From: a virus
Virus record (IMG/VR): IMGVR_UViG_3300041407_000094
Location: 1 to 64,000 of that record
Strand: one strand, 5' to 3'
Length of the DNA stretch: 64,000 nucleotides
Positions 1,436 to 61,206 of the stretch are shown here, one piece after another. The translations under genes were made by a program, and so were the position numbers. Every line of letters starts with the position of its first letter. Position 1 is the first letter of the stretch. A model generated the notes under the pieces. The model saw only the letters and a program-made list of their open reading frames with translations. It ran no database searches and was not told where the DNA came from.

Positions 1436-2926
1436 TTATGTATTTTCTGTGTTGGATGTGGAAGAGTCGCCTGAGCTACCGTTAGATGATCCCGTACCGT
1501 TACCCATACCCTCAACCATTCCCTGACCACTGCTTGAAGTCTCAGGAGTAAGCTGCTTAGAAAGCTCTTCAACGGACAAGCTTTCATCTACTTTGTAAGG
1601 GATGTTTGCTTGATCCATAATCCAGTTAACTACTTTTGGTGCTTTAGGGATTAGGCCCACTGCTGCGGTCCGTTGAATGAACTTAGAGATTTCATCAAGA
1701 CTAACTTTACCAATCTCACCATAAGTCCACTCTGGCATAACTTCTGTTGACCAGCCATTTAACTGGAACAGTTGTTTGGCAAGGTCAAAGTTAAGTTGAG
1801 TTTTAATCTCATCTAGTTTAGATTGAATAGCCATCTCTACTACGCTGATTTTAGATTCGGCAAGAGAGAAGCTACCTGAACCATTACTACCAAGAGTCAA
1901 AAAGTCTGCAAACAAAGCAGTAAGAATCTCTGCTGTGTAACGCTGAATAATAAGGTTTGTATCATAAGACTTTTGTCCAGTTACAGACATAATCTCAAAC
2001 TCAAACATCTTCTTGCCATCTTGGTCAAGAATAAGAGGAAGAATCAAACCAGACTCTTTAGCTTGATGCATGTTCTTGATTACAGTTTTGTAATGCTCAA
2101 ACACCGCTTTATCTTCAACAGTTGCGGTTTCAGTCATATACTGAGGGGGCAAGTAAAGCACTTTAAACCCGTTCGAATCTTGAGCCACGGAGATAGCCTC
2201 CGACTCTTGATAAGCTGTCTTGTACTTCCAAGCTGTCCAACAACCAACCAAAGGAGATTGGCCTTCGGGGCTATCTTTTATGGGATTTGAGCGGAACAAC
2301 ATGAACTTTTTACGCGGGATGAACTTAATGTTATTATCGTTAAATTCGTCTACTTCTTGATAGGAATTTATAGCACGATTACTTGGGATATTAACGCACT
2401 GATTCAAACCAGCAAGGTCACGGCCTTTATTCTTGAATACCCAACTGTCAATTGAGTCTTGTGAACGCAAAGGAAGTTTACGAATACCAATTAGGCCGTC
2501 ATTATACATCGAGCCTTTTTCTTTGTATCTTTGACGATAAACCTTCTCTACCGGTGCAAAACCATAACGGTTGAAGCTCACAGCTTGCTTAATAAAGGAC
2601 TTAAAATCGTGTTCCATATCATTCATACATTGACGCATGAATATGGCTTTATCTTTCAACTCTTCTTCGTAGCCTTCTGGAATCTTTACTGTCCAGTCAA
2701 CACGAGAAATCATCATCTCAACATACGCAAGAGCTGGGGCAATAGCACCATCTTTTTCCATACGTTTAAAGGTCTTAATTGCTTGTGGCCAACGTAGTTC
2801 GCTAGCGCATTCCTCAAGAATTTCGCCACCTAAAACCCGGAGATTATTAAATCCAGTTTCACCAAGAGCAAGAGTTGGAATATCATTTTCCCCAGCCTCT
2901 AGGGAGATTTCAGCATCATCAGCCAT
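1436..2926 (-). CDS. Portal protein, DUF935/Mu gp29-like
   Basis: The 496-aa protein sits between terminase and protease, the standard portal slot. Its N-terminal half carries the DUF935-type layout: an alternation of short helices with MISRVDWTVKIPEG near residues 75-90, then KQAVSFNRYGFAPVEKVY near 125. The C-terminal tail is Ser/Gly/Asn-rich and low complexity. Portals form the dodecameric DNA gate at the head vertex and dock terminase. The start ATG at 2926 follows AGGAG that lies inside the last terL codons, so the two genes are translationally coupled. Family assignment at DUF level is from memory of motifs. Confidence 0.85.
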   Translation of the reverse strand: MADDAEISLEAGENDIPTLALGETGFNNLRVLGGEILEECASELRWPQAIKTFKRMEKDGAIAPALAYVEMMISRVDWTVKIPEGYEEELKDKAIFMRQCMNDMEHDFKSFIKQAVSFNRYGFAPVEKVYRQRYKEKGSMYNDGLIGIRKLPLRSQDSIDSWVFKNKGRDLAGLNQCVNIPSNRAINSYQEVDEFNDNNIKFIPRKKFMLFRSNPIKDSPEGQSPLVGCWTAWKYKTAYQESEAISVAQDSNGFKVLYLPPQYMTETATVEDKAVFEHYKTVIKNMHQAKESGLILPLILDQDGKKMFEFEIMSVTGQKSYDTNLIIQRYTAEILTALFADFLTLGSNGSGSFSLAESKISVVEMAIQSKLDEIKTQLNFDLAKQLFQLNGWSTEVMPEWTYGEIGKVSLDEISKFIQRTAAVGLIPKAPKVVNWIMDQANIPYKVDESLSVEELSKQLTPETSSSGQGMVEGMGNGTGSSNGSSGDSSTSNTENT

Positions 2927-4614
2927 TTAAGCTCCTGCATTAAGGAAGGGGTTAGATTGAGTTAGGTTTGCGGATAGTAGACCGGATGAGAAGTTTGGAA
3001 TGATTTGTCTTTGTGCTAAAGTTATGAAACTATCAGCTACGGCATCAACTTGGTCATCCTTCCGGGCACGGGAGCCGTCAAAAGCCTCACATTCAGAGAA
3101 GAAAGTATCATTCCACTCCCCGTGAACATATCGAACTAAGCCCGCTTCAGATGCTGATGCAAACGGCATAAATCTCAAGACTTTGGATTTATTTGTTGCC
3201 CTCATCCGGGCATAAAGACCTTCACTTAGGAATTCTTTAATCATCATTTGTCCAGCAGCTTTCCCAGCTTGGCCGGGCTCCTGCGGGATTATAATCTGAG
3301 TACCTTCAGGATCTTCTTTAGCAACTTCAATCATTCGTTGTATAACTTCGCCAAATCTGGCACGAAATCTAACAACGTCCATAATGATATATAAACCAGA
3401 CTTTGTTTTTCCTAGAAGGACTCCGGCTGTCCAGTCTGGGTTAGGAAGTGCTTCTGATGGCAATGAGCCAGCAATATCCCAAGCCCTGCAATATTGAACT
3501 ATATCAAGATCAAAAGGATTAACAGGTTCGCCCATCCAGTCTAATTTCCAAAAACCGCTGGAGTCCTCGCGGATGTCCCAATTCCCAAAAAGGTCGCGTT
3601 CTTTTTTTACACGTTTGAGACCTTGAAGGTTTGCAAGATATCCGGGGTTAGCTTTAATAAGTGGCGGATTGTCGTAGATCGTGGCTGAAATAAACTGTAG
3701 AGAAAGTGGAAGTACATCTTTACCGTAAGTCTCAAGAAGTTCTTCTCTGCTATCGCCCCAAATCATTTCATTGTTTTGACGGATAAACCAACGAACTTTA
3801 CCATCTCGTTCTGGATTAGGACGACCGGCGTTCTCTTCCCCTTTAGGGATGATCCACCAATCAATCCAACGACGTAAAAATGAGTCAGGAGAGGGGTTAC
3901 AAGTTAGAAATAAGTTAGGTTTCATCTTCGCTTTAGTACGAAGTCGAGACAATACAACTAGTGTGTGGTCCTCAGAAATCTGAGTGGCCTCATCTAGCAT
4001 TGCCCCAGAAATTTGTAACCCACGATATTTCTCTGCATCGTCATCTGTATCAAGGTGAGACATAGAAATCTCAGCGCCCGATGCAAATGTGAACTTCATT
4101 TCTTTTACGTTAACTTTTACTTTAGGGTCAAATGCCCTATATAGTTGGCGAGCCTCATCAAAGAGGCCACCAGATTTAGTCAGGGTATTTGAATTCTTTC
4201 GGATGATGAAACCGCGATATTGAGGATCATGCACCCAGCGGAGATGGCGAAGCAAGCCACAATAAGACTTACCTCCTCCCATAGCCTTTCTGTTATAAAG
4301 CTCGCTAAGCCTTTCTTAAGTTTCCCTAAGTGTCGGACCAACTCTTAATTCTAAGAATTCTCTCTGTTTCGGAATCGCTTGATCCCTACTCTACTCACTT
4401 CCACATTACTGTGTGTTTTCGATGGCCTCTACGCACTGTCTTTAAACATTGGCACGGGATTGGCATAGACCTAAGTCCTTAGCTTTCCCCGTTTAAGAGA
4501 GTTTTAAATGGAGGCGCTAAGTTCACCACCATATACAATTATGTCACTATCAGCCGACAAAAACCAACTTTGTTTCAAACTTGCCGGTGAGAATGAATAC
4601 TCAAAATCTGTCAT
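2927..4614 (-). CDS. terL: Terminase large subunit, split by group I intron
   Basis: The product is about 482 aa after removing an intron at 4286-4524. Exon 1 (4614-4525) encodes 30 aa ending SDIIVYGG, and exon 2 (4285-2927) begins AMGGGKSYCG. Joined, they restore the canonical Walker A YGGAMGGGKS, which neither exon has alone. Exon 2 also carries the Walker B region GAMLDEATQ, the coupling motif LTCNPS, and a RuvC-like nuclease domain (CRAWDIAG, IIIPQEPGQAG, DDQVDAVADSF). The enzyme packages genomic DNA through the portal using ATP and cuts concatemers. Without splicing, translation from exon 1 stops six codons into the intron (GGELSASI). An ATG at 4282 would give an N-truncated product lacking the upstream beta strand. 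The exon 1 ATG overlaps the stop of the upstream HNH gene (ATGA). Confidence 0.93.
4286..4524 (-). ncRNA. Group I intron (IA2-like) inside terL
   Basis: The 239-nt insertion interrupts the Walker A codons of terL. The 5' splice site follows a U (GGUGGU|GAAC). That U can wobble with G in an internal guide (GCCUCCAU) that pairs with exon AUGGUGGU to form P1. The core contains AAACGGGGAA and AAUCCCGUGCCAAUG (P3-P5 region, 4494 to 4447) and AGUAGGGAUCAAGCGAUUC followed by CGAAAC (P7 region, 4390 to 4366). These closely resemble the T4 td/nrdB intron cores as I remember them. The intron ends in G (AGAAAG|GCUAUG), as required for group I omega-G. It has no internal ORF. Confidence 0.9.
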
Positions 4615-5192
4615 CTTGAAATTTCTTTCCCATGATTTTCAGAATACCCGTACTCTACTTCCCATGCTTTTCGAGCATTAGCAGCGTCTTCCAACTCTTT
4701 AAAGATACCTAGATAATGCCTAACACGCTTTCCGTCAATTATTTCTTGACCCTCAGCTTGCCATTTACCTGTTTTCTTGTGGAAAGACACACCTACAACC
4801 CCGGAAGAGTTATTTGTATATTTAGCACGGTTTCTGTGGTTTAATTTATCAATACTAAGTTGTAAATTAGATATTGCATTATTTTGAGTGTTCAAATCAA
4901 TATGGTCAATATCCTCAGAAGGCCACTCACCATTTACATATAGCCAAGCAAGTCTGTGAGCCTTATACAACTTTCCACCCAACCCAATTACAACGTAAGG
5001 GGATGGATTCCTTTTTGTTGCTGGACTCAAATAACCAGCTTCAAGTGTAGGACTTATATTACTGAAGAATCCGTTTTTACCTCTCCAATCTTTGAAGTGG
5101 TAATCTGGTCTATCCAACTTCCAAGTAAACTTTCCAGTTTCTGGATTGTAGTCTATAGCTTCTTTTAGGTAATCTTGCGTAATTTCATTCAT
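4611..5192 (-). CDS. HNH homing endonuclease with AP2-like domain
   Basis: The 193-aa protein has an HNH core at about residues 75-120 (AHRLAWLYVNGEWP, DIDHIDLNTQNNAISNL). A C-terminal AP2-like DNA-binding repeat follows at 125-180 (GVVGVSFHKKTGKWQAEG, LGIFKELEDAANARKAWE). Such enzymes make site-specific breaks that promote copying of their own gene into related phages. It is free-standing: its TGA overlaps the terL start, and it is not inside the neighbouring intron. It may serve that intron in trans (inference). Confidence 0.85.
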   Translation of the reverse strand: MNEITQDYLKEAIDYNPETGKFTWKLDRPDYHFKDWRGKNGFFSNISPTLEAGYLSPATKRNPSPYVVIGLGGKLYKAHRLAWLYVNGEWPSEDIDHIDLNTQNNAISNLQLSIDKLNHRNRAKYTNNSSGVVGVSFHKKTGKWQAEGQEIIDGKRVRHYLGIFKELEDAANARKAWEVEYGYSENHGKEISR

Positions 5193-6957: not shown

Positions 6958-8346
6958 CTACAATCCTAAAGCAGCCGTATAAGCTGGGATAGCGTATCCA
7001 GCCAATGTTAGATAACCATTAGCCGTAGGGTGTGTATTATCCAATGTCTCAAAGCCTGTCCATGTGATGGTATCAATCCAAACAAGCTTAGGATTAGCTT
7101 TAGCATCCATCACAGCTTTCAATGTGACGTTTGCAGCATTAACCAACTCTGGAGCACCAGTGTTAGGCAGAATCCCACGACACAATACTTTGCCATATCC
7201 TTTAGCCAGCAACTTATCAATACACAATCCATAATCAGTTTGTTCTGTGCTATCAATACCACCAGAGCCGCTATTACCACCCAGTGCTAAGATTGCTACA
7301 TCATTAGCTGTCACAGTCTTCATAGCCAAGGCAGCATCAATCATTGCCTTGCCACCACCTGTAGTTTGACCACTAACACCATTCGTGCTACCAACAAACC
7401 CAAGGGCTGCTGCTACGTGCATTGTCTCAGTGTTTACTGAAGTAGCTCCGGGACCAGAACCGTAAGTGATGCTGTCACCAAATTGGTCAAGCTTTCTTCG
7501 GACACCAATGTCAAGCAGTGTGCTATTGCCGCTTACAGCAAAATGTCCACCAAGCTCTCTGAATGCACCACCATCCCACACATTGTATGTTGCTACAGAG
7601 CCATCACAAGGAATAACAATAGCCCGAGGAACACCATCAGCTTCAGGAGGGGCTGTGTAATAAGTGGGTGTACCACCATTCTTACTCACACCAACCCTAG
7701 AGGATGTAGCTACAATCTTAGTGAATGCCCCACGTATCTTCACAGAGCCTACGTTAGATCCACTGGTTACATTACTTGGTGCTTGGAGAGGCGGGGAATA
7801 TCCGGCAACGTTTGGTATGATCCCAGCAGAATACAAGCCTGTAGCTGAATCACTGCCTGCCTGAATCCAATTAGATGCTGTAACAAGGGATGGAGGTTGA
7901 CCTGTAACACTCAAGACATTTCCAGAGGATGCCACATAGGGAGCATCACCCATCTGCACAACCCACCTTACTTGAACAAAGTAGGTAGCGTGAGGAAGGC
8001 CTGTGAAGAGAGTGTATACAGATGCAGAGTTAGGGGCGCTAGTGAAGTCACCACCGTCTACGCTCACTTGCATAGACCCGGCATTATCACCATAATCTGA
8101 AGGAGATGTAAGCAACGCTTGCGTGCCTGTAATCCATCCACACCACAATGTCAAAGCACCGTAGGCATATACTCTTGCAGCATTCTTAGTTGTATTAAGA
8201 GAGCCTGCAAAGCCCGGAACGAACTGAGAGGATGTGAAGGGTGCAGTTGTGGGATCAGGAATTACAACGGAATGCTTTAGTTTAAAACTGTGAAGAGGTC
8301 TTGAAATAGAGCTGACAACTGGAGAGGTGATATCATGAGTCATCAT
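6958..8346 (-). CDS. Tail/receptor-binding protein with SGNH esterase domain
   Basis: The 462-aa protein has a beta-rich virion-like N-terminal half and a C-terminal SGNH/GDSL hydrolase domain from about residue 285. Block I reads FGDSITYG (nucleophile Ser). A Gly/Asn block reads LALGGNSGSGG. The catalytic Asp-His pair lies in DNTHPTANGY near residue 437. Such domains on phage spikes deacetylate or de-esterify surface polysaccharides, so a receptor-modifying function is likely. The ribosome binding site is weak (GAGACTTG), which suggests coupling to the upstream 100-aa gene ending 5 nt before. Tail-spike placement is an inference. Confidence 0.8.
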   Translation of the reverse strand: MMTHDITSPVVSSISRPLHSFKLKHSVVIPDPTTAPFTSSQFVPGFAGSLNTTKNAARVYAYGALTLWCGWITGTQALLTSPSDYGDNAGSMQVSVDGGDFTSAPNSASVYTLFTGLPHATYFVQVRWVVQMGDAPYVASSGNVLSVTGQPPSLVTASNWIQAGSDSATGLYSAGIIPNVAGYSPPLQAPSNVTSGSNVGSVKIRGAFTKIVATSSRVGVSKNGGTPTYYTAPPEADGVPRAIVIPCDGSVATYNVWDGGAFRELGGHFAVSGNSTLLDIGVRRKLDQFGDSITYGSGPGATSVNTETMHVAAALGFVGSTNGVSGQTTGGGKAMIDAALAMKTVTANDVAILALGGNSGSGGIDSTEQTDYGLCIDKLLAKGYGKVLCRGILPNTGAPELVNAANVTLKAVMDAKANPKLVWIDTITWTGFETLDNTHPTANGYLTLAGYAIPAYTAALGL

Positions 8347-15123: not shown

Positions 15124-15927
15124 ATGGCGGGTAAAAGTCGGGCATATCTAACTGTAGTCGATGACCAAGAGGTTTTGGTCCCGAGGAAGAAAACACGGTC
15201 CACCAGAAATGGTGGTGTTAAGCCTGAGATTAAGGAAAAGTTTCTGGAGGAACGTAATAACCCGCCACCAGTTGTGGCTAAGACTGCAAAACAGAAAGAA
15301 TACTTCCGTCTTTTGGAAGATCCTGAAGTAAAAGCAATCGTATGCTTGGGTTTGCATGGTACGGGTAAGACTTTTTGTGCTGCTGTTGTGGCTGCTGATA
15401 AGTTCCGTAAGAACGAAATCAAACAAATTATCGTAGCTCGTGCATATGTTCAAACTGGTAAAACATCAGGTTTTAAGCCCGGCAGTTCCTTGCAGAAGTT
15501 GTATCCCTACGTTCGTAACGTTCTGGATACTATTAAGTCTCGTATTGGCGGCGGGGCATACGAAATTGCACTGAAAGACGGGGAGTCAGGTGAAATTCAG
15601 GTGCAGGAAGTTGAGAGTATTCGTGGCCGATCCTTCGATCTGCCCTCATTTCTGATCATCGACGAAAGCCAGCAAACAACCAAGGAAGAAATGCAAAGTA
15701 TTGTTACGCGGGTATCGGATAACTGCAAATTGGTGTTATGCGGGGATATTTTGCAGAAGGATATTCAAGGCGAATCTGGTCTTGAGTGGTTTATGTCTTT
15801 CTCAAAACGTCATAATTTGAAAGGTGTTGCAGTGATTGACTTTAATTCTCCAGATGAAATTGTTCGTGGTGGGTTGGTTAAGGATATTGCAATTGGGATG
15901 ATGAAAGACCGGGCAAATGATTTGTAA
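15124..15927 (+). CDS. phoH: PhoH-like ATPase
   Basis: The 267-aa protein has a PhoH-type P-loop ATPase. Walker A is GLHGTGKTF near residue 79. The Walker B region FLIIDESQQTT comes near 178, and the sensor region VLCGDILQKDIQG near 207. A basic N-terminal extension of about 50 residues precedes the domain. PhoH proteins are widespread in phages. Their proposed roles in RNA metabolism or phosphate-stress responses are not settled. GAGAAGGAAA precedes ATG. The stop is 8 nt before an inserted homing endonuclease gene. Confidence 0.9.
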   Translation: MAGKSRAYLTVVDDQEVLVPRKKTRSTRNGGVKPEIKEKFLEERNNPPPVVAKTAKQKEYFRLLEDPEVKAIVCLGLHGTGKTFCAAVVAADKFRKNEIKQIIVARAYVQTGKTSGFKPGSSLQKLYPYVRNVLDTIKSRIGGGAYEIALKDGESGEIQVQEVESIRGRSFDLPSFLIIDESQQTTKEEMQSIVTRVSDNCKLVLCGDILQKDIQGESGLEWFMSFSKRHNLKGVAVIDFNSPDEIVRGGLVKDIAIGMMKDRANDL

Positions 15928-15935
15928 GGAGAAGT

Positions 15936-16667
15936 ATGAAAGCTATTAATTTAACGGGGATGAAATATAATAGACTTCTTGTAGAAAGTTTCGCGGGTTC
16001 TCGTAAGACCGAAGGTGCTGGTCAGTCTATACGAACTTGGAATTGTTTGTGTGACTGCGGTAATAGGATTGTTGTAGATGGGCATGCCTTGAAGTGTGAC
16101 AATACGATGAGTTGTGGATGTTATAAACTTGAAGTCACAACAACACATGGTATGTGGAAGGATCGATTTTATCAAATATGGGGAGATATGAAAGTTCGCT
16201 GTGATTGTGAAACTAATCAGTCTTACTACAGATATGGAGGTCGTGGTATTAGCTATCAAGAATCTTGGGTATCGTTTGAAGCTTTTAAAGAAGACATGTA
16301 TTCCAGCTATGAAGATCACCTAACTCTAGAGAGGATTGACGTAAACGGTAATTACTCCAAAGAAAATTGCTGCTGGGCCACTAAAGCCGAACAAGCAAGG
16401 AATAGAGGTATGGATACACGTAATAAAACAGGAGTAACTGGTATTAGAACTTGGATTGATAAAGATACTCAGGTTCTATATTATGTAGCAGAGGCTCAAG
16501 GGTTAGATGGTAAAAGGGTGACTAAACACTTTTCAACTGTAAAGTATGGCGAAGAAGGGGCATTTAATTTGGCCGTCGCTAAACGAAAAGAGTTTATGAA
16601 TGTACTAAGTGAAAATGGAATTGAGTACGGCATTAATCACGGTATCCAAAAAGAGGAATTTGTATGA
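15936..16667 (+). CDS. HNH homing endonuclease with AP2-like tail
   Basis: The 243-aa protein has a cysteine-bearing N-terminus (CLCDCGNRIVVDGHAL, MSCGCYK). An HNH-type core follows (ERIDVNGNYSKENCCWATK, near residues 130-150), then a C-terminal AP2-like repeat (GVTGIRTW to AFNLAVAKRKEF). It lies between phoH and a ClpP-like gene, consistent with insertion beside conserved genes by homing. AAGGAG precedes ATG, and the stop overlaps the next start. Confidence 0.85.
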   Translation: MKAINLTGMKYNRLLVESFAGSRKTEGAGQSIRTWNCLCDCGNRIVVDGHALKCDNTMSCGCYKLEVTTTHGMWKDRFYQIWGDMKVRCDCETNQSYYRYGGRGISYQESWVSFEAFKEDMYSSYEDHLTLERIDVNGNYSKENCCWATKAEQARNRGMDTRNKTGVTGIRTWIDKDTQVLYYVAEAQGLDGKRVTKHFSTVKYGEEGAFNLAVAKRKEFMNVLSENGIEYGINHGIQKEEFV

Positions 16668-17434
16668 AACACGAAGAACTAATGCTGTTGCCACAAAAGT
16701 CGCGTATCTCCTCCAGTCATAATGGAGGTATGACCCACGTTATTCGGATTCACGAAGATATTTCTGAGCCAAGTAACTGGAGCGATGAACTTGATCTGAT
16801 TAATGGTGCTTCTGAACAAGATACAATTGTGCTTGATGTGTGCTCGCCGGGAGGTTATCTTGATACAGCAATGCTCTTTCATCGTTCATTGAATAATTGT
16901 GCAGCTCACACTGTTGCAATTATTGGCCCTGAGTGTGCAAGTGCTGCGTCGATCATTAGTCTTTCGGCTCGGGAGTGGATTCTAGATGACACTTCTAGTC
17001 TAATGATTCACACATCTAGCTATTCGCTTGGAGGAAAGGACACAGATATTCTGGAACATGCAAACTTCTCTCGTGGACAGTTGAAGCGTTTGTATGAAAA
17101 AGTTTATTCGGGTTTTCTAAGTTCCGATGACCTTAGCGATGTCATTAAAGGGACTCCGTTCTACTTTAGTGCAGAACAAATTGCTGATCGTCTGGATGCA
17201 CTTACAGAATATCGCGCAAGTCTTCCTTGCCAGTGTGGTGATCCGTTGTGTGGGGTAGGCACAACAGAAACTTCTGAAGAAAACGAAGAAGACTTTGACG
17301 AAATGCCTACATTGGAAGACATGATTTCTTCTGCGGTAGCTTCCGGTATTGAGCAGTACGAAAAGAAACGATTGGCTACTGAAAAGAAAGCAAGTCGTGC
17401 AAAACCAGTAAAAATTACCGAGAAATCCGAATAA
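16664..17434 (+). CDS. ClpP-like serine protease
   Basis: The 256-aa protein has a ClpP/enoyl-hydratase fold serine protease domain at about residues 25-170. VLDVCSPGGYLDTAML carries the Gly-rich oxyanion region. CASAASIISL holds the catalytic Ser. MIHTSSYSLGG holds the catalytic His. A downstream Asp is not pinned. The C-terminal quarter has cysteines (CQCGDPLCGVG) and an acidic-basic tail. It is separate from the S49 prohead protease, so a role in host or early phage protein turnover is possible. The ATG overlaps the upstream endonuclease stop. Confidence 0.85.
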   Translation: MKHEELMLLPQKSRISSSHNGGMTHVIRIHEDISEPSNWSDELDLINGASEQDTIVLDVCSPGGYLDTAMLFHRSLNNCAAHTVAIIGPECASAASIISLSAREWILDDTSSLMIHTSSYSLGGKDTDILEHANFSRGQLKRLYEKVYSGFLSSDDLSDVIKGTPFYFSAEQIADRLDALTEYRASLPCQCGDPLCGVGTTETSEENEEDFDEMPTLEDMISSAVASGIEQYEKKRLATEKKASRAKPVKITEKSE

Positions 17435-18601: not shown

Positions 18602-18735
18602 GTTATACAGAAGTTGAATTGGAAGGTTTGGAAAGTTCACTTGAACATTGGATTCTGAGTGATGAGCAAGATATGCGTGAAACTTTTGGTGACGACCTTG
18701 TGTTTGCTGTGAAGGAGGCTCTAGTAGATGATTAG
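18598..18735 (+). CDS. 45-aa acidic peptide
   Basis: Acidic helical peptide (MSYTEVELEGLESSLEHWIL) in the coupled chain. It overlaps the start of the following homing endonuclease by 8 nt and provides its ribosome binding site (GAAGGAGG). Confidence 0.6.
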   Translation: MSYTEVELEGLESSLEHWILSDEQDMRETFGDDLVFAVKEALVDD

Positions 18736-19360
18736 GGAGAAGCATTACGGAATAGGGATTAATGATGCTGATTGGCCATTATATACTTATGAAATAGTGG
18801 GGAATAAAAAGAAAAGAATTGGGATTTGCCCGTTTTATATGCGATGGGTTACAGTTTTAAGTAGATGCTACTCACCAAAGGAGTTAAAAAGGAATCCATC
18901 ATATCTTGGCTGTGGTGTTTGCGACGAGTGGAGATACCTTTCAAATTTCAGGTCTTGGATGGAAACTCAGGATTGGGAAGGTAATCAATTAGATAAAGAC
19001 TTGCTTGTCAGGGGTAATAAAACTTATAGCCCTGAAACTTGTGTATTTGTATCACAAGACGTTAATAAATTTTTAACTGATCGTGCTAATGACAGAGGGG
19101 CTTTTCCGATTGGTGTTTATTTTGAAAAAGATTCTGGTAAATATAAAGCTCAAGGAAGCGGTGGTGTAGGGAAGCGTATAAATTTAGGCCGTTTTGGTAC
19201 TCCAGAAGAAGCTCATAAAGCATGGCTAACCTTTAAATTAGAACAAGCTTACGTGTTAGCCGAACGACAATCTGATGAGAGGGTCGCCAAGGCTTTGATT
19301 GATCGCTACGAAAATTATGTGATGGCTTTCTCAATTACTGAGGATACTGCAAATGACTGA
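18728..19360 (+). CDS. HNH/AP2-like putative homing endonuclease (subfamily 1)
   Basis: This is a 210-aa member of a family found three times here (also 26227 and 62447). Shared blocks are YGIGINDADWP at the N-terminus, CPFYMRWVTVLSRCYS, then LDKDLLVRGNKTYSPETCVF. An AP2-like strand block follows (PIGVYFEKDSGKYKAQG, LGRFGTPEEAHKAWL). In related phage proteins the DKD...N...SPETC segment replaces a classical HNH. It sits among tiny genes, so insertion may have split an operon. Nuclease activity is inferred. Confidence 0.75.
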   Translation: MIREKHYGIGINDADWPLYTYEIVGNKKKRIGICPFYMRWVTVLSRCYSPKELKRNPSYLGCGVCDEWRYLSNFRSWMETQDWEGNQLDKDLLVRGNKTYSPETCVFVSQDVNKFLTDRANDRGAFPIGVYFEKDSGKYKAQGSGGVGKRINLGRFGTPEEAHKAWLTFKLEQAYVLAERQSDERVAKALIDRYENYVMAFSITEDTAND

Positions 19361-22186: not shown

Positions 22187-22215
22187 TTGTAAAGACACGA
22201 AGTTTCTGATATGAT
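22187..22215 (+). promoter_or_regulatory. Sigma70-like promoter
   Basis: TTGTAA, 17-nt spacer, TATGAT. It lies in the 110-nt gap before the membrane peptide and the phaZ unit, so it is the likely promoter for phaZ. Confidence 0.6.
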
Positions 22216-22241: not shown

Positions 22242-22424
22242 ATGTTTATAATTCTATATCTCGCAATAACTTTAGTAATGCTGTATAGCGAAGCACTCGA
22301 TTGCTACAGAACTAAAGTGAAATTCAATATCCTCGGTAGTTTGTTGTTCTCCTTTGCTTGGATTATATCCCTACCTTGGTCTATTTATAGTATTTGGGCT
22401 GTTCAACAGAAAGATACAAACTGA
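22242..22424 (+). CDS. Small membrane protein
   Basis: The 60-aa protein has two hydrophobic segments (residues 1-14 and about 28-50, LLFSFAWIISLPWSIYSIWA). AAAGGAG precedes ATG. It is first gene of the phaZ unit. Role unknown. Confidence 0.7.
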   Translation: MFIILYLAITLVMLYSEALDCYRTKVKFNILGSLLFSFAWIISLPWSIYSIWAVQQKDTN

Positions 22425-22446: not shown

Positions 22447-22626
22447 ATGACCAAACAATATTCCCATGACAGAGAAGTGATCAAAGACTTCATCCGCTTC
22501 CTGTCAGATGAGCATAAGTGTGCAGTGGTGTGTTTTCCTGATGAATTTGCAGCCAACAGTTATGTGAACTATAAGTTTATTAACGTTTCAGATATCTTGG
22601 AAGAGTTTTTGGAGGGGAGAAAGTAG
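22447..22626 (+). CDS. 59-aa protein, unknown
   Basis: Mixed alpha/beta peptide (HDREVIKDFIRFLSDEHKCA). Its last codons supply GGAGGGGAG for the phaZ GTG start, which overlaps its stop by one base. Confidence 0.7.
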   Translation: MTKQYSHDREVIKDFIRFLSDEHKCAVVCFPDEFAANSYVNYKFINVSDILEEFLEGRK

Positions 22627-23459
22627 TGAGCATTCAAATGAATAACCAAACAATCGTGTTAGGGAATCAGTCCATGTACGTTTCAATTAAGCCGGGGAAG
22701 CTTGGGGCTGTCCCACTTTTGATAATGAATGGTATAGGAGCGAATACTGGTCTGCTGACTCCGTTTGTTGAAGCTATGCACGAATCAAATCCTGAACTTG
22801 AGATTATTACTTTTGATGTGCCGGGGTGTGGTGGATCTTCTGTTCCCTCTTTTCCATACCGATTCAGTGGTTTGGCTAAAACAGTAAGTCAGGTACTTGA
22901 CTATTTGAACTATGGGCAAGTTGATGTACTTGGCCTATCATGGGGTGGATTTTTGGCGTCGCAGTTCGCATACGATTACCCACAACGTTGTAAGAAACTA
23001 ATACTATGCGCGACGGCCACTGGCGTTACATCCGTTCCACCTAGTTTTAAGGTGTTGTCGCTGATGGCTTCGCCTAGACGCTACTCTGACTCAGCTTATA
23101 TGATCGAGATTGCTCCTCTAATCTACGGTGGAAAATTCCGCTCTGATCCTGAGCTAGCAATTAAGTATGCACGGAAGATGGAAGCTAATAGGTCTGAAAA
23201 TAAAGCTAACACCGCTGGATACAAGTTTCAACAGCTAGCAATTTGTTGGTGGAGCAGCATGTGGATGCTTCCTTGTATTAAACAACCTACACTTCTGATT
23301 GGTGGTAGCGATGATCCAATCATACCGTTAGTGAATATGAAGATTATGAAAGGACTTATTCCTAATTCAAAGCTTCATGTGGTGGACGATGGACACCTTT
23401 TCCTACTCTGTTCAACTGATGTGGTAACACCTATTATTAATGAATTCTTGGAGGGTTAG
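22626..23459 (+). CDS. phaZ: Intracellular polyhydroxyalkanoate depolymerase
   Basis: The 277-aa alpha/beta hydrolase matches, block by block from memory, the Pseudomonas medium-chain PhaZ. The blocks are MNGIGAN near 34, FDVPGCGGSS near 65, FPYRFSGLAK, and LDYLNYGQVDVLGLSWGG with the nucleophile Ser in GLSWG. Then come DYPQRCKKLIL, MASPRRY, IAPLIYGGKFRSDPEL, GGSDDPIIPL with catalytic Asp, and DDGHLFLL with catalytic His. Its length fits the family (about 280 aa). PhaZ hydrolyses stored PHA granules to hydroxyacids, so a phage copy would act as an auxiliary metabolic gene mobilising host carbon. The GTG start follows GGAGGGGAG. The next gene begins one base after the stop. Confidence 0.9.
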   Translation: MSIQMNNQTIVLGNQSMYVSIKPGKLGAVPLLIMNGIGANTGLLTPFVEAMHESNPELEIITFDVPGCGGSSVPSFPYRFSGLAKTVSQVLDYLNYGQVDVLGLSWGGFLASQFAYDYPQRCKKLILCATATGVTSVPPSFKVLSLMASPRRYSDSAYMIEIAPLIYGGKFRSDPELAIKYARKMEANRSENKANTAGYKFQQLAICWWSSMWMLPCIKQPTLLIGGSDDPIIPLVNMKIMKGLIPNSKLHVVDDGHLFLLCSTDVVTPIINEFLEG

Positions 23460-23846
23460 ATGATAATTGAATATGCTAGAATACTCTCACCTCCAATGTG
23501 CAGGCGATATCCAGAGAAGATATACATCTATGGTGATAACTTAAAAGCCTTCGGTAAAGGAGGGCAAGCTATCATCCGTGATGAGCCTAATGCTTTGGGT
23601 ATCCCAACTAAACGATACCCTTCTTGGGATGATTGGGCATTCTTTAGTGATAAACCAGATGAAATTGAAGCTGTAAAGATATCCCTACGTGAATTGTGGA
23701 AGGTTGCACAAGACAAAGTGATTGTATTCCCTGAAGATGGTATTGGAACAGGAAGGGCTAAGATGAAAGAGAAATCTCCTGTTGCTTATGAGATGATGTG
23801 TGGTATATTGTGGGAACATTTTGGTATTGTTAATGGAGGAAAATAA
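23460..23846 (+). CDS. Conserved phage protein, unknown role
   Basis: The 128-aa protein contains IYGDNLKAFGKGGQ, IRDEPNALGIPTKRYP and FPEDGIGTGRAKMKE. I recall this conserved phage/bacterial family as uncharacterised (a DUF). The glycine-rich loops could bind a nucleotide. It follows phaZ directly and is probably co-expressed. Confidence 0.75.
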   Translation: MIIEYARILSPPMCRRYPEKIYIYGDNLKAFGKGGQAIIRDEPNALGIPTKRYPSWDDWAFFSDKPDEIEAVKISLRELWKVAQDKVIVFPEDGIGTGRAKMKEKSPVAYEMMCGILWEHFGIVNGGK

Positions 23847-24113: not shown

Positions 24114-24422
24114 GTGAACCAAACAATTGAAGACAGGATGCAAGCTGTAGAAGATCAACTGAAAGAAATTCGTAAAGAATTGGAGGAGAGTTTGGCGAGG
24201 TATAAGGATAAAGAAGACCCTCTTGCAAACTACAATCTGCACACAGCAAACCCTAACCTCCCTGTGTGGGATGCATCTACTTACTATAGGGAAGGCTGTC
24301 TTGTAAAATGGCCTGATGGTGGTATAATGAAAGCTAAGATTAATACCATATCAAATATTGAAGATTGGTATGACCCTGCAAAATGTGATATACATGGAAA
24401 CATGGTTGAGAAGATCAAATGA
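24114..24422 (+). CDS. 102-aa protein with coiled-coil N-terminus
   Basis: It starts at GTG behind GAGGAGAA. Residues 5-40 form a charged heptad helix (EDRMQAVEDQLKEIRKELEE). The C-terminal half resembles carbohydrate-binding Trp-Asp modules (WDASTYYREGCLVKW), which is tentative. Confidence 0.65.
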   Translation: MNQTIEDRMQAVEDQLKEIRKELEESLARYKDKEDPLANYNLHTANPNLPVWDASTYYREGCLVKWPDGGIMKAKINTISNIEDWYDPAKCDIHGNMVEKIK

Positions 24423-24984: not shown

Positions 24985-25169
24985 TGAACAAAGACACAAT
25001 TATGGATTTCATCGAATGGCTTGAAGATGAAAAGAATGTTTATCTTGTAGATATGTACTACCACAATAAAGAGGGTACAGGGATGTTTGATTCACTGGAT
25101 GAAGTGAGAAGTCTGGTGGATGAGTTTGCAAAGTTGCCGTCTGTCGGATACATAGACACAGCCTTGTAA
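24981..25169 (+). CDS. 62-aa acidic protein, unknown
   Basis: Either GTG 24981 or ATG 24984 can start it, behind GGAGGATAAGG. Acidic helical peptide (MDFIEWLEDEKNVYLVDMYY). Its TAA overlaps the -35 box of the next promoter. Confidence 0.65.
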   Translation: MMNKDTIMDFIEWLEDEKNVYLVDMYYHNKEGTGMFDSLDEVRSLVDEFAKLPSVGYIDTAL

Positions 25170-25192
25170 ACGCAGATTTAAGCTGATATAAT
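25164..25192 (+). promoter_or_regulatory. Sigma70-like promoter
   Basis: TTGTAA, 17-nt spacer, TATAAT. A small GGACAA/TTGTCC hairpin (about 25216-25229) lies in the leader before the next gene. Confidence 0.7.
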
Positions 25193-26167: not shown

Positions 26168-26226
26168 TTTATAATATCCTCACATTTCTTAATTGATTTG
26201 TGGGGTGCTTTTATTTTGGAGGGGTT

Positions 26227-26832
26227 ATGGCATATAGGATTATACAAGGTGTAGGCATTAATGATGCCGGCTATGTAGTTAATAAGACGGACAGTCTAGG
26301 TAGGAGGGTTAGGTGTCCATTCTATGTTAAGTGGGCAGCGATGCTAGAACGATGCTACTCTGAGTCTTTTCATAAAACCAATCCAAGCTACGTAGGGTGT
26401 TCTGTGCATCCCAACTGGCACAGGTTCAGTAACTTCAAAGCTTGGATGGAACAGCAAGATTGGGAAGGGAAACACTTGGACAAAGATCTACTAATTATTA
26501 ACAATAGAATATATTCCCCTGAAACTTGCGTTTTTGTTAGTGGTGCGGTTAATAACTTTACTCTTGATGGTGGCAACCAGAAAAGTGGACTACCGATGGG
26601 AGTATCACTAGACAAGAGCTATGTTCCGTTGATGTACAAGGCACAGTGCAGGAGTGTTATAAGTGGGAAGAATGAGACTGTGGGCCGTTCACCAAACCCA
26701 GATATTGCACACAAAGCATGGTTAGCAGCTAAGCTAGAACAAGCTTACATCCTTGCAGAACAACAAACAGATAAGCGTGTAGCTGAAGCTTTGATTGATA
26801 GGTATGAAAATTATAAGGAGTATTTTGGTTGA
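26227..26832 (+). CDS. HNH/AP2-like putative homing endonuclease (subfamily 1)
   Basis: The 201-aa protein is a sibling of 18728 and 62447: GVGINDAGYVV, CPFYVKWAAMLERCYS, LDKDLLIINNRIYSPETCVF, and a C-terminal AP2-like block ending AHKAWLAAKLEQAYILAEQQ. ATG 26227 with GGAGGGG 3 nt upstream is chosen over a GTG nine codons earlier. It overlaps the helicase gene start, again placing an endonuclease beside a conserved gene. Confidence 0.75.
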   Translation: MAYRIIQGVGINDAGYVVNKTDSLGRRVRCPFYVKWAAMLERCYSESFHKTNPSYVGCSVHPNWHRFSNFKAWMEQQDWEGKHLDKDLLIINNRIYSPETCVFVSGAVNNFTLDGGNQKSGLPMGVSLDKSYVPLMYKAQCRSVISGKNETVGRSPNPDIAHKAWLAAKLEQAYILAEQQTDKRVAEALIDRYENYKEYFG

Positions 26833-48591: not shown

Positions 48592-50451
48592 TTGAGTAAT
48601 ATCCGAGAGGTCATATCTCATTATCTTGATATCTCTGGAGATAAGTGTTGCTGCCCTTTTCACAAGGAACGCACACCATCTCTGAATATCTTTGACGATA
48701 CCAATTCATTTTATTGTTTTGGCTGTGGTCAGAGTGGGGATGAGATTGAGTTTGTGAAGGACTACAAAGGTTTGACATTTCCCAACGCTGTTAAGGAAGT
48801 GTGTTCAATTCTGAAATTAACCAAAGAGGAGCTTATGGAAAGTAAAGATAAAGAAAAGGTTGCTGAGAAAGTAGCTATTGAGAATGCTGAAGTTATGGAT
48901 GTTGAAGAAGTTAAATCTCTCATTCAATCCACAGGATATGTGAGTCATGGGTATCGCGGTATCCGAGATGACATTAACAAATTCTTTGGGCATTTGAGTA
49001 AACTGGATAGTCAAGGTAAAGTCCTTGCACGCTACTACCCAGAAACCAATAACAACGGTAAGTTGACAGGTTATAAATGCAGAAACACACCAAAGGACTT
49101 TAGTCACGGAAACCAAGGAATTACTGGCAGTAAGAGTCAACTTAGTGGTCAGGTGAAATTCAAATCCCCCGCTAAATATGTTCTCTATGTTGGTGGCGAG
49201 GAGGATAAAGCAGCAGCTTTTCAGATGCTCAAGGATAATCGTAAGGATCAGGAGTTCGATTCTATTCCTGTAGTAAGCTCAACGGTTGGTGAGTTGACAG
49301 CAGCCAAACAAGCTGCCCAACAATATGACTGGTTTGACATGTACGATATCATCGTAATTGGCATGGATAACGATGAAGCTGGTCGTGCTGCTGCAAAGAA
49401 GATTGCAGACGTTCTACCAAAAGAGAAAGTACGAATTGCTACATGGTCCGGCAAAGATCCAAATCAGATGTTGATTGATGGTAAAGAGAAACAATTTGTT
49501 CGTGATTTCTACAATGCAAAAGAATTCATTAGTAGTGGTATTTCCTCTTCTGGTGACGCTGAAGCTGGTTTGGCTGAGTTCCTGACAGCTCCAAAGATTG
49601 GTCTACCACCTCAACTGAGCAAGCTTGAGGCTGCAATGCGTGGTGGTATCAAATCTACTGGCTCCGTTGTGAACATTATTGGTGACACAAGTATTGGTAA
49701 GAGCTTTCTGTCTGACACTCTGATCTATCATTGGTTGTTCAACAGTCCTCGTGTACCAACAATTGTCAGTCTTGAGCGAACTAAGGAAGAGTTGACAATT
49801 GATTTGCTGTCAATGCATCTTAAGAAAAACCTGATGTGGTTCACAGATGGTCACGATGCTGTGGATTATCTGAATCAACCTGAAGTACAAGTATTGAAGA
49901 ATAATCTTCTTTACAACGAAGCTGGTGAGCCTCGATTCTTTATTATTGATGAGCGGGAAGGGGAGATTGAACTTCTCAAGCGTCAGATGGAGAAAAGTGG
50001 TAAAGTCAATGATTCACGACTGATGGTGATTGACCCACTCACTGACTTCTTGCGATCATTAGGGACAGAGGTTCAAGAAAACTTTATGATGTGGCAGAAG
50101 TTGCAAAAGAAGAATGGTTTTGTATTCATCAACATTCTTCACACCCGCAAGCCACCAACTGATAAAGATGGCAATGTTCGCAAGGTTACGGAATATGACG
50201 CACTTGGTTCTGGGACATTTATCCAGTCAGCAGACGTGAATATTGTGATCAATCGTGATAAGATGGCTTCAGATCCGATTGAGAAGAATACGACCTATGT
50301 TGACATGCCTAAGTGTCGTGGGGGTATCACTGGTGAGATTTGTGCGCTATACTATGACGCTGAAACTCGTCAGCAGTATGATCGTGATGAGTATTTTGAC
50401 CGTAAAGTAGAAGATCCACCGCAACATCATGCGGATGAGATTGATTTTTAA
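48592..50451 (+). CDS. T7-type primase-helicase
   Basis: The 619-aa fusion starts at TTG behind AGGAGAG. The N-terminal CHC2 zinc finger is CCCPFHKERTPS and FYCFGCGQSGD, about 19-45. The Toprim catalytic segment is IIVIGMDNDEAGRAAAKK near 255. A DnaB/gp4-type RecA domain has Walker A IIGDTSIGKSF near 365, the Walker B region MVIDPLTDFL near 480, and HTRKPPTDKDG near 520. The tail is acidic and ends ADEIDF, as in T7 gp4, where the tail docks the polymerase. It unwinds the fork and primes the lagging strand for the adjacent PolB. Confidence 0.95.
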   Translation: MSNIREVISHYLDISGDKCCCPFHKERTPSLNIFDDTNSFYCFGCGQSGDEIEFVKDYKGLTFPNAVKEVCSILKLTKEELMESKDKEKVAEKVAIENAEVMDVEEVKSLIQSTGYVSHGYRGIRDDINKFFGHLSKLDSQGKVLARYYPETNNNGKLTGYKCRNTPKDFSHGNQGITGSKSQLSGQVKFKSPAKYVLYVGGEEDKAAAFQMLKDNRKDQEFDSIPVVSSTVGELTAAKQAAQQYDWFDMYDIIVIGMDNDEAGRAAAKKIADVLPKEKVRIATWSGKDPNQMLIDGKEKQFVRDFYNAKEFISSGISSSGDAEAGLAEFLTAPKIGLPPQLSKLEAAMRGGIKSTGSVVNIIGDTSIGKSFLSDTLIYHWLFNSPRVPTIVSLERTKEELTIDLLSMHLKKNLMWFTDGHDAVDYLNQPEVQVLKNNLLYNEAGEPRFFIIDEREGEIELLKRQMEKSGKVNDSRLMVIDPLTDFLRSLGTEVQENFMMWQKLQKKNGFVFINILHTRKPPTDKDGNVRKVTEYDALGSGTFIQSADVNIVINRDKMASDPIEKNTTYVDMPKCRGGITGEICALYYDAETRQQYDRDEYFDRKVEDPPQHHADEIDF

Positions 50452-50461
50452 GGAGAAGGTT

Positions 50462-52684
50462 TTGGATAAGAAGTGGTATGAATCAGACTTTATTTACGAT
50501 TTGGAGTCGTACCCGAATGTTTTCTCTATGAGCATCATCCATGCTTCTGGTAAACACATGCGAGTTTTTGAGATTAGTGATCGTAAGAATGAAATTGAAG
50601 GGATTGCTAAATGCTTGCGATATCTGGTTCAGAATAAATGTCGTATGGTGGGATTTAACAATAACTCATACGACTACACTCTTATCCATGAAATCATTAA
50701 ATCTCTGAAGGAAGCAAAGCAAACTGGTAAAGCTCCAAATATTACAGCTCAGAAGCTTTACAAACTCACAACTCAAATCATTACAAAAATGCAGTCTGAA
50801 GATAAGTGGTACGGCATTAAAGAAGCTGACCACTTTATTCAACAGGTTGATTTGTATAAAATTCACCATATGGATAACATGGCGAAAGCTACATCTTTGA
50901 AGATGTTGGAAGTGAACATGCGATCTACCAACGTGGAGGATTTACCCTTTCCTGTTGGTAAGAAGCTGACAAGTGATGAAATTGATATCTTATTGCATTA
51001 TAACAAACACGATGTTAATGAAACTCTGAAGTTCTATTACTACTCTTATGAGGCGATTGAGCTTCGTAAGGAGTTGTCTGAGAAGTTTGGATTTGACTGC
51101 ACAAGTTTTAGTGATAGTAAGATTGGTGAAACCTTGTTTATCAACCGTCTAGAACAAGCTCAGAAGGGTTTGTGCTATGAGTACAGTAAACATGGTGGCC
51201 GTAAGATCAATCAGACCAAGCGTGACAATGTAAAGATTAAAGATTGTCTTTTTGACTATCTGAAATTTGATCGTCCTGAGTTTAGGGCTGTACATGATTG
51301 GTTGAGTAATCAGACAGTGCAAGAAACTAAGGGTGTCTTCAATGATTATGAAGAACATCAGATCGGTGATCTTGCTAAGTATGCTCAGATGAAAACCAAA
51401 AAGGTGTTGTTCAAGAATAGGTTGAATCTCGATAATAAAGATAAACCTAAAGCTGACTTTGATTTTACTGATCTAGATCACTTGGAAGAACTTCAACGTC
51501 TGAAAGATGAATTCTTGAAAGAACATCCTATGGGATATTTTGAAGAGAAGGAAACTAAAACGTCACGCTCTCATAAGCTTAAGGTAACTGCTTTCTATCG
51601 AGTGGTTGAGGCAATTAACACTGTAATTGATGATAAGGTGTACGTGTACGGTACTGGCGGTATTCACATGTCTATTGAAAGTGAGACTGTGAGAGCAGAT
51701 GACGAATGGACAATTATAGACGCCGACGTCACCAGTATGTACCCGTCGATTTCCATTGCCAACAACGTGTATCCTGAACATCTCGGTATTACATTCTGTA
51801 AAGTGTACAAGGATCTATTTATGGAGCGTGGTAGATATCCAAAAGGTAGTGGTCCAAATGGTGCAATTAAGCTAGCATTGAACTCTGTGTACGGTAAGTC
51901 CAACAGTGAGTTTAGTCCGCTTTATGACCCTAAATATACCTTAACTATCACCATTAACGGTCAACTGTGCCTGTCTATGCTGGCTGAAAAACTGATTGAT
52001 CTTGGTTGTAAGATGATTCAATGTAATACTGACGGTGTGACAGCTTTGGTTCCACGCAGTAAGGAAGCTGATTATTATGCAATCACAAAAGAATGGGAAA
52101 AAACTGTTGGACTTCGGTTGGAGTATGCTGTATATTCAATGATGGCTTTGGGAAACGTTAACAACTACATCGCCGTTTATGAAGATGGGAAGGTGAAGAG
52201 TAAAGGTCAGTATGAAGTTGCTCACTTTGAAAAGCTTGGATGGTCTAAAAACCATTCTGCGATGATCGTGCCAAAGGCTGCACTTGACTACATTGTTTAT
52301 GGTAAAGATATTGAAGAGACTATTCGTTCTCACAAGGATGAATTTGATTTTCTTTTGAGGGCGAAAGTACCACGTAGCTCAAAGCTTTATCTTTGTTATG
52401 AGGACGGTCGTGAGGTTCAGCAACAGAACATCTGCCGCTACTATCCATCTGAACAAGGTGGTAAATTGGTCAAGCTGATGCCAGCCTTGATTGATGGTGG
52501 TGAATGGCGTAGACTTGGATTGGACACTGAATGGACGGTTGAGACGTGCAACAACATTGCAGAGTTTGACTGGAATAAACTTAACTATGATTATTACATC
52601 AAGGAGGCTCAAAAGCTGATTGATGGTGTGGGGATGAAAGAAATTGAAAATAATGCTTTACAGGGCCATGAAAACGTGGAATAA
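50462..52684 (+). CDS. Family B DNA polymerase with proofreading
   Basis: About 740 aa from a TTG at 50462, chosen because AAGGAGAAGG precedes it; a longer frame from 50429 overlaps the primase gene. The exonuclease motifs are ExoI FIYDLESYPN, ExoII MVGFNNNSYDY and ExoIII YNKHDVNETL. The polymerase motifs are A DADVTSMYPSI, B KLALNSVYGKS and C CNTDGVT. The A to B distance is only about 45 residues, so the fingers are unusually compact. It replicates the phage genome with the T7-type helicase, an unusual pairing since T7 itself uses PolA. Confidence 0.93.
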   Translation: MDKKWYESDFIYDLESYPNVFSMSIIHASGKHMRVFEISDRKNEIEGIAKCLRYLVQNKCRMVGFNNNSYDYTLIHEIIKSLKEAKQTGKAPNITAQKLYKLTTQIITKMQSEDKWYGIKEADHFIQQVDLYKIHHMDNMAKATSLKMLEVNMRSTNVEDLPFPVGKKLTSDEIDILLHYNKHDVNETLKFYYYSYEAIELRKELSEKFGFDCTSFSDSKIGETLFINRLEQAQKGLCYEYSKHGGRKINQTKRDNVKIKDCLFDYLKFDRPEFRAVHDWLSNQTVQETKGVFNDYEEHQIGDLAKYAQMKTKKVLFKNRLNLDNKDKPKADFDFTDLDHLEELQRLKDEFLKEHPMGYFEEKETKTSRSHKLKVTAFYRVVEAINTVIDDKVYVYGTGGIHMSIESETVRADDEWTIIDADVTSMYPSISIANNVYPEHLGITFCKVYKDLFMERGRYPKGSGPNGAIKLALNSVYGKSNSEFSPLYDPKYTLTITINGQLCLSMLAEKLIDLGCKMIQCNTDGVTALVPRSKEADYYAITKEWEKTVGLRLEYAVYSMMALGNVNNYIAVYEDGKVKSKGQYEVAHFEKLGWSKNHSAMIVPKAALDYIVYGKDIEETIRSHKDEFDFLLRAKVPRSSKLYLCYEDGREVQQQNICRYYPSEQGGKLVKLMPALIDGGEWRRLGLDTEWTVETCNNIAEFDWNKLNYDYYIKEAQKLIDGVGMKEIENNALQGHENVE

Positions 52685-60533: not shown

Positions 60534-60544
60534 GGAGAGTTTTG

Positions 60545-61030
60545 GTGTCAAAGAAAGAATGTATAAAGTTTGGTTATGCAATCGGTAATCAACCTGCCAT
60601 GGGTGATCACTGGGAAGTTTGGAAACAAGTGAAAGCTCAGTCTAAACTTATCCTAGAAGAAGTGAATGAACTTGAGGATGCTTGTTCAGAGGAAGACCTT
60701 CTAGAAGTGCTGGACGCTGTAATGGACATCAAATACCTTAACACATATCTGGAACATCTGCTGGAAGCTTACGGCTGTAAGACAAAGCTTGCTTGGGAAA
60801 CAGTGTGCTCAAATAATGCACAGAAGATTACAACCAGCTACACCTACGCACAAAGCAGTAAAGAATACCTAGAGTCTCGTGAAGAGGGTGAATTCTATAT
60901 TGATGAAACTTTGTTTGAAGGTGAACGTCTATATACGGTAAAGCGCATGTCTGACAACAAAGTAATGAAGCTGAAGTCTCATGTACGTCCAGAACTTACC
61001 ACTTGTATTCCTGAAGAGTTTAAAGTATGA
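60545..61030 (+). CDS. MazG-like NTP pyrophosphohydrolase
   Basis: About 161 aa from GTG 60545 (TTG 60542 is also possible), behind AAGGAGAG. The all-alpha NTP-PPase signature appears as ILEEVNELEDACSEEDLLEV with a second acidic helix DAVMDIKYL, giving EExxE and ExxD metal sites. Such enzymes hydrolyse dNTPs or (p)ppGpp-related nucleotides. Here it fits dNTP pool control. Confidence 0.7.
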   Translation: MSKKECIKFGYAIGNQPAMGDHWEVWKQVKAQSKLILEEVNELEDACSEEDLLEVLDAVMDIKYLNTYLEHLLEAYGCKTKLAWETVCSNNAQKITTSYTYAQSSKEYLESREEGEFYIDETLFEGERLYTVKRMSDNKVMKLKSHVRPELTTCIPEEFKV

Positions 61031-61206
61031 TTCACGCAAGCACTCAAACAGCTAGACCTAAAGCAGACTGGAAAGATTATGTCTTCAACAAAGAAGACTA
61101 CAGTAAAGTGGTAGCTTCGGGGATGTGTTGGGTGGTTTTTCCAGACTGGCCTACACCACAAGAGTTTGAAGAGTATTTGAATAATAAGGAGAAAGAAGTT
61201 GTTTGA
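61027..61206 (+). CDS. 59-aa protein, unknown
   Basis: MIHASTQTARPKADWKDYVF with aromatic residues. Its end supplies AAGGAGAAAG for the ThyX TTG start. ATGA overlap upstream. Function unknown. Confidence 0.65.
   Translation: MIHASTQTARPKADWKDYVFNKEDYSKVVASGMCWVVFPDWPTPQEFEEYLNNKEKEVV

Follow-up and report, generated by a model that had tools for sequence, protein, structure and literature searches.

The window analysed here is a stretch of 64,000 nucleotides, positions 1 to 64,000 of the 81,122-bp IMG/VR virus contig IMGVR_UViG_3300041407_000094. An earlier note on this DNA had proposed that it carries a full-length gene for a poly(3-hydroxyalkanoate) (PHA) depolymerase, phaZ, and an intact ORF of 277 aa was found exactly at 22626-23459 of the plus strand. 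The features of the locus, together with three hallmark genes of the phage that carries it, are the following.

1436-2926, minus strand: portal protein (PF06074, 66.7 bits)
2927-4282, minus strand: terminase large subunit (phrog_979, E 1.9e-163)
22187-22215, plus strand: promoter-like site of the sigma70 extended -10 type, TTGTAA-N17-TATGAT with the TG present, upstream of the phaZ cistron
22242-22424, plus strand: small hydrophobic ORF, 60 aa, probably a membrane protein, in the same presumed transcription unit as phaZ
22447-22626, plus strand: 59-aa ORF directly upstream of phaZ, its stop codon overlapping the phaZ GTG by 1 nt
22611-22617, plus strand: strong Shine-Dalgarno sequence of phaZ, GGAGGGG
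22626-23459, plus strand: phaZ, predicted intracellular mcl-PHA depolymerase, 277 aa, GTG start (TIGR02240 score, four trees and AlphaFold2 model)
22728-22730, plus strand: Asn35 codon, NGIG loop, aligned with Asn35 of P. putida PhaZ
22938-22940, plus strand: codon of the nucleophile Ser105 (GLSWGG), equivalent to Ser102 of strain KT2440 and invariant across 29 aligned rows
23031-23228, plus strand: lid region with helices in the AlphaFold2 model, corresponding to residues 133-192 of the KT2440 enzyme
23181-23213, plus strand: lid-hinge segment with an insertion that adds a net 6 residues compared with chromosomal PhaZ (alignments)
23313-23315, plus strand: codon of the triad residue Asp230, equivalent to KT2440 Asp221
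23394-23396, plus strand: codon of the triad residue His257, equivalent to KT2440 His248
23460-23846, plus strand: DUF7831 protein, 128 aa, downstream neighbour of phaZ (PF25176, 103.6 bits)
50429-52684, plus strand: phage DNA polymerase (phrog_1252, E 1e-176)

The suggestion that phaZ sits behind its own promoter region was borne out in part: a promoter-like site does lie upstream, but it precedes two small ORFs that read into phaZ and not phaZ directly. DNA resembling the 59-aa ORF was found directly 5' of phaZ in contigs L008, L010 and L011, with a homologue just upstream of the gene in L014, and no family match was obtained for the 60-aa hydrophobic ORF in Pfam or PHROGs. Strong extended -10 sites occurred only three times on the plus strand of the window, all of them within 22-25 kb (TTGTAA-N16/17-TATRAT at 22187-22215, 24301-24328 and 25164-25192), and shuffling gave an expectation of 0.73 such sites on average with both strands counted. 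These sites are likely to be early phage promoters, and their enrichment at 22-25 kb fits early transcription by the host polymerase. The site preceding the phaZ cistron was not conserved among relatives.

The earlier note had also set phaZ together with its neighbours, and a functional link of this kind was not supported. The DUF7831 protein was present in only 6 of the 32 PhaZ-bearing viral records, which rules it out as a functional partner of PhaZ. No recurrent neighbour of phage phaZ was seen, the flanking genes varying between phages, and none of the 32 records held a PHA synthase (PF07167), suggesting that the phage enzyme would depend on the beta-oxidation of the host. In one relative a reverse transcriptase gene (phrog_1423) was located directly 5' of phaZ (L123:6762-7922). 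Homing-endonuclease-like ORFs of the HNH/AP2 type were found in the window at 4611-5192 (minus), 18728-19360 (plus) and 26200-26832 (plus); the last two are mutually similar and flank the phaZ region on both sides.

By its terminase, portal, DNA polymerase and primase genes, the replicon is a tailed phage. Further hallmarks in the window were a primase/helicase (phrog_239) and an exonuclease (phrog_403), recognised with PHROGs, and an S49 peptidase recognised with Pfam. The nearest isolates for the terminase were the Pseudomonas phages UAVern, ventosus, Bitten and PAK_P3, the nearest isolate for the DNA polymerase infects Pseudomonas plecoglossicida, and vB_PpS_SYP was among the nearest Pseudomonas phages for terminase/polymerase; a Pseudomonas-type host is therefore likely, not proven. 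A non-exhaustive scan of the window ORFs showed no integrase. Other genes of the window included one in the virion region (6958-8346, minus) whose 462-aa product has a GDSL lipase/acylhydrolase domain at its C terminus and is perhaps a tail esterase, a run at 15124-17434 (plus) encoding a PhoH-like ATPase, a 243-aa unknown protein and a ClpP/NfeD-like protease, and ORFs for a MazG-like (PRA-PH) protein (60542-61030) and the flavin-dependent thymidylate synthase ThyX (61199-61876, plus).

The PhaZ identity was examined with family profiles, structure prediction and trees. Against NCBIfam TIGR02240 (PHA_depoly_arom), an equivalog model for poly(3-hydroxyalkanoate) depolymerase, the window protein scored 330.8 bits, 80 above the cut-off of 250.6, and non-PhaZ hydrolases reached at most 141 bits in the six Pseudomonas genomes scanned. 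All 29 aligned members, including the window protein and 23 other viral ones, matched this model at E<=1e-74. Two other identities were rejected on their scores, namely the 3-oxoadipate enol-lactonase PcaD (87.6 bits, curated cut-off 255.85) and the short-chain intracellular PHA depolymerase (NF050089, 52.1 bits, cut-off 300). The PHROG and Pfam searches matched a generic hydrolase and nothing finer. The AlphaFold2 model obtained with 29 homologues (pLDDT 89.9, pTM 0.90) had a helical lid over an alpha/beta-hydrolase core; in Foldseek searches it matched general hydrolases and a Bacillus PHB depolymerase in the PDB (TM 0.74), and among viral models only distant esterases of giant viruses and phages. 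By family, the window ORF is an intact intracellular mcl-PHA depolymerase, and from these data we infer enzymatic activity on mcl-PHA.

As the first reading of the sequence had held, the catalytic triad was intact and collinear with that of Pseudomonas PhaZ: in the alignment to the P. putida KT2440 enzyme, whose residue assignments were taken from PMC12504323, Ser102, Asp221 and His248 corresponded to Ser105, Asp230 and His257. Asn35, the mutation of which abolishes the activity of KT2440 PhaZ (PMC12504323), was kept in the window protein, as it was in 48 of 51 phage copies. The three exceptions (L014, L103 and L144), all in one subclade, have Thr at this position (TGIGA versus NGIGA), so that these enzymes may be altered in activity or substrate. 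The lid was identical to that of P. putida at 34 of 60 residues. Its hinge loop measured 25 residues in the window clade, against 19 in chromosomal PhaZ and 19-21 in the majority of the other phage copies, and the inserted segment had the lowest pLDDT of the model. In KT2440 PhaZ a single mutation at the lid hinge, S184F, nearly abolishes PHA hydrolysis and raises esterase activity (PMC12504323).

The hinge insertion of the window clade, the change of Asn35 in three relatives and the generic hydrolase matches in PHROGs and Pfam would be compatible with a PhaZ-derived esterase whose present substrate is a different ester, for instance a membrane lipid or a molecule of signalling or defence. We regard this as unlikely, since all aligned members fall within TIGR02240, the lid is largely that of P. 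putida, Asn35 is retained in nearly all phage copies, and the hosts of related phages belong to a PHA-making genus. Strong purifying selection also speaks against it: dN/dS in the window clade was 0.09-0.16, with dS of 0.4-2.8. Retention of the depolymerase function is the reading followed below.

A phylogeny against bacterial PhaZ, which the earlier note had named as a check, was run as four trees. Their rows were PhaZ-like proteins only, other hydrolase families having been excluded through the profile scores, and in all of them the window protein grouped with PhaZ orthologues, beside the Pseudomonadaceae and apart from the Burkholderiales and other outgroup PhaZ. The refuting outcome named in the note, a placement among other alpha/beta hydrolases, did not occur. 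One chromosomal PhaZ was found in 258 of the 398 Pseudomonadaceae genomes sampled, and also in 24 of 25 genomes of the genus of PA7; phaZ copies of the P. putida type lay between long ORFs of the PhaC type. The phage copies fell outside the tight chromosomal clade of the Pseudomonadaceae, and identity to the window protein reached at most 58% among the Pseudomonadaceae matches listed. This identity and the phage-like GC of the gene rule out a recent capture from a Pseudomonas host.

With wide bacterial sampling, two of the four trees placed the phage copies in a single clade together with two bacterial strays (support 98/99 and 98/100), the second of them setting L326 apart. When only Burkholderiales served as outgroup, the chromosomal clade was recovered at 100/100 and the phage set was not joined, although a single clade was not rejected (p-AU 0.47). 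Several independent captures, as drawn from the first tree (4 changes), are disfavoured because better bacterial sampling gave one supported phage clade with the two strays. A single origin of the phage copies is thus favoured, not proven; the PhaZ of L326, with 42% identity and a score just under the family cut-off, is a separate acquisition. One stray was a second PhaZ of phage type in P. lini CC269 (L022:3004-3816), on a contig without pha genes nearby, the normal PhaZ of this strain being L052. The other was a phage-type PhaZ on the 1.17-Mb megaplasmid of P. silesiensis G3 (L016:3989-4882), outside any pha operon. Strain G3 came from a landfill for plastics.

Relatives of the gene were numerous in IMG/VR, where at least 59 further contigs of 5-307 kb carried it; the 51 found in a first pass came from 23 metagenomes. 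Even with 10% shared proteins sufficing to join contigs, gene content divided 23 representative contigs, most of them sampled in part, into at least nine groups that otherwise share few genes or none; with full sequences some of these groups may merge. Among them were the window type (40% GC, 80-104 kb), three jumbo phage contigs (228-307 kb), phages near 48 kb in size, with genes for a phrog_771 capsid and a tape measure, and phages of about 90 kb with a baseplate protein related to that of Pseudomonas phages Dolphis and Jeremy. Phage hallmark genes adjoined phaZ in the relatives examined, and the nearest isolates of several of these phages infect Pseudomonas. In the L110/L142 type, the genes on either side of phaZ are virion genes read from the other strand, as is typical of morons. 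Over a range of 0.39-0.60, the GC of phaZ departed from that of the surrounding phage DNA by no more than about 5 points, and this tracking suggests that the gene has long resided in phages. Four phaZ matches with a flagged in-frame TGA proved to end in normal terminators, which ruled out recoding.

No PhaZ was found in isolate phages by tblastn over 50,697 phage GenBank records, where the listed matches were other hydrolases with less than 40% identity. Two contigs deposited as 'Acinetobacter phage MD-2021a' (CAKLQH020000010.1 and CAKLQF020000014.1) had a match near a streptothricin acetyltransferase gene, and the sister contigs CAKLQH020000027.1 and CAKLQH020000062.1 hold pcaD and pcaB; these deposits look like bacterial contigs mislabelled as phage.

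An example of phaZ as discrete cargo came from L104 (283 kb), a relative of the jumbo isolate Noxifer, with a DNA polymerase identical at 529 of 633 residues. At L104:7652-9669, phaZ occupied the place of Noxifer gp081, a single gene slot with both flanks conserved: the gp082 homologue (76 of 98 residues identical) and the homologue of the gp080 NTP-pyrophosphohydrolase (197 of 282). Five near-complete relatives of the window phage (84-92 kb, DNA polymerase 89-97% identical) were without phaZ, so that the gene is accessory and dispensable in this group.

We read these results as the trace of an old phage-borne PhaZ lineage that would have been passed between phages and only rarely back to bacteria. 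In its full form, to which we give an even chance, a phage-specific lineage would have had a single origin in Pseudomonadaceae PhaZ, and horizontal transfer would have carried it into unrelated Pseudomonas phages, ranging from 48 kb in size to the jumbo phages of the nucleus type. It would serve them generally to burn host polyester and replicate in nutrient-limited, granule-loaded cells, and would have made an occasional return to bacteria (the second copy of P. lini and the megaplasmid of P. silesiensis).

For the gene itself, we consider it probable that phaZ is an auxiliary metabolic gene of the phage, encoding a working mcl-PHA depolymerase that would hydrolyse the granules of the host and fuel beta-oxidation and ATP formation during infection. 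The sequence shows the phage location, the family, an active site and a lid that are both intact, purifying selection and the recurrence in unrelated phages; activity, timing, flux and benefit are what the proposal adds to them. When a Pseudomonas-type host with PHA granules is infected, phage PhaZ would be made, probably early and from a promoter for the host RNA polymerase, and would bind the granule surface, where the Ser-Asp-His triad beneath the hydrophobic lid would free (R)-3-hydroxyalkanoic acids. These could be activated by the host acyl-CoA synthetase (FadD1; PMC8764540) and converted by host beta-oxidation to acetyl-CoA, NADH and ATP, which would supply phage replication with energy and carbon when external nutrients, nitrogen especially, are poor. 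In P. putida with raised PhaZ, PHA accumulation stopped and ATP was about tenfold higher in stationary phase, and the wild-type level of the enzyme is below detection by Western blot (PMC8764540), so that a phage-supplied PhaZ could change the state of the host.

In PHA-accumulating P. putida, cells that had elevated PhaZ and carried no granules measured roughly half of the wild-type size (PMC8764540). This observation, and the fact that three PhaZ contigs are jumbo-sized, one of them the Noxifer relative, would also suit a phage that removes granules for the space and the proteins they hold, in aid of virion assembly, the phage nucleus or lysis, the monomers being a by-product. We hold such a role to be quite improbable, since phaZ was also carried by phages of about 48 kb whose capsid and tail genes are ordinary and in which space matters less, and no recurring phasin-targeting gene was seen beside it. 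Stationary P. putida stays metabolically active when its PhaZ level is high (PMC8764540), and together with the moron-like layout of the L110/L142 type this could mean that phaZ tunes the PHA cycle and starvation survival of a host that lives on through chronic, pseudolysogenic or lysogenic infection, and does not serve lytic growth. That would be a very improbable main function, given the likeness of the window phage and of the jumbo types to lytic phages, and given that no integrase appeared in the non-exhaustive ORF scan. A neutral passenger or an assembly artefact, to which the confinement of phaZ to metagenomic contigs might point, is effectively refuted by its recurrence on 59 contigs, a dN/dS of about 0.1, a GC matched to each phage, the placement outside the chromosomal clade and the clean synteny of the Noxifer slot.

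If phaZ does mobilise host granules, a phage enzyme aimed at a storage polymer would explain how phages might multiply in starved soil bacteria that are rich in carbon and poor in nitrogen, and would link phage infection to bioplastic turnover. The metabolic genes known from phages concern mostly photosynthesis, nucleotides or central carbon flow; the recurrence of phaZ suggests that phages widely raid the carbon store of the host, a strategy not described so far. A testable system is at hand in L104, given its close relation to Noxifer, a phage of the laboratory strain P. fluorescens SBW25. In industrial PHA production with Pseudomonas, such phages could destroy the product before lysis, and the phage copies, with hinge loops of 19-26 residues, offer diverse natural lid-hinge variants of an enzyme studied for plastic recycling. 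The view that a phage-borne function of this kind is not well described held for both isolate phages and the literature: no report of a phage PHA depolymerase was found in 5.39 million open-access publications, subscription journals and preprints lying outside this search, so that priority is not certain.

The closest known system is the chromosomal PhaZ of Pseudomonas (KT2440), with which the window protein shares the equivalog family, triad, Asn35 loop, lid and length, at 56-58% identity. Relative to the P. putida enzyme it has three additional residues ahead of the nucleophile, six more in the hinge of the lid and no C-terminal tail, and its phage lineage lies outside the chromosomal clade (100/100). 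The chromosomal gene is located between phaC1 and phaC2, whereas the window gene is on a phage without phaC; location is, however, a matter of context and not a property of the enzyme. The PHB depolymerase PhaZ of Bacillus thuringiensis (PDB 8ynv and 8ynw) likewise folds as an alpha/beta-hydrolase (TM-score against the model about 0.74) but is a short-chain PHB enzyme with 19-21% identity and not an orthologue. The capsule 'depolymerases' of phages are unrelated and share the name alone, PhaZ being a predicted cytosolic serine esterase on intracellular polyester. Those virion-borne capsule or exopolysaccharide enzymes are tailspike glycan lyases or hydrolases that work outside the cell.

Phages of PHA-producing mixed cultures carry phaC, phbB, fadJ and other auxiliary metabolic genes, with no depolymerase mentioned (PMC12013262). 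Those genes also touch the PHA cycle, but on the side of synthesis and precursor supply, whereas PhaZ would act in PHA breakdown and its phage copies make up a separate lineage. Auxiliary metabolic genes of phages are exemplified by the photosynthesis and pentose-phosphate genes of cyanophages. Phage phaZ resembles such genes generally in being a host-derived metabolic gene under selection, and differs from them in its predicted target, a storage polyester.
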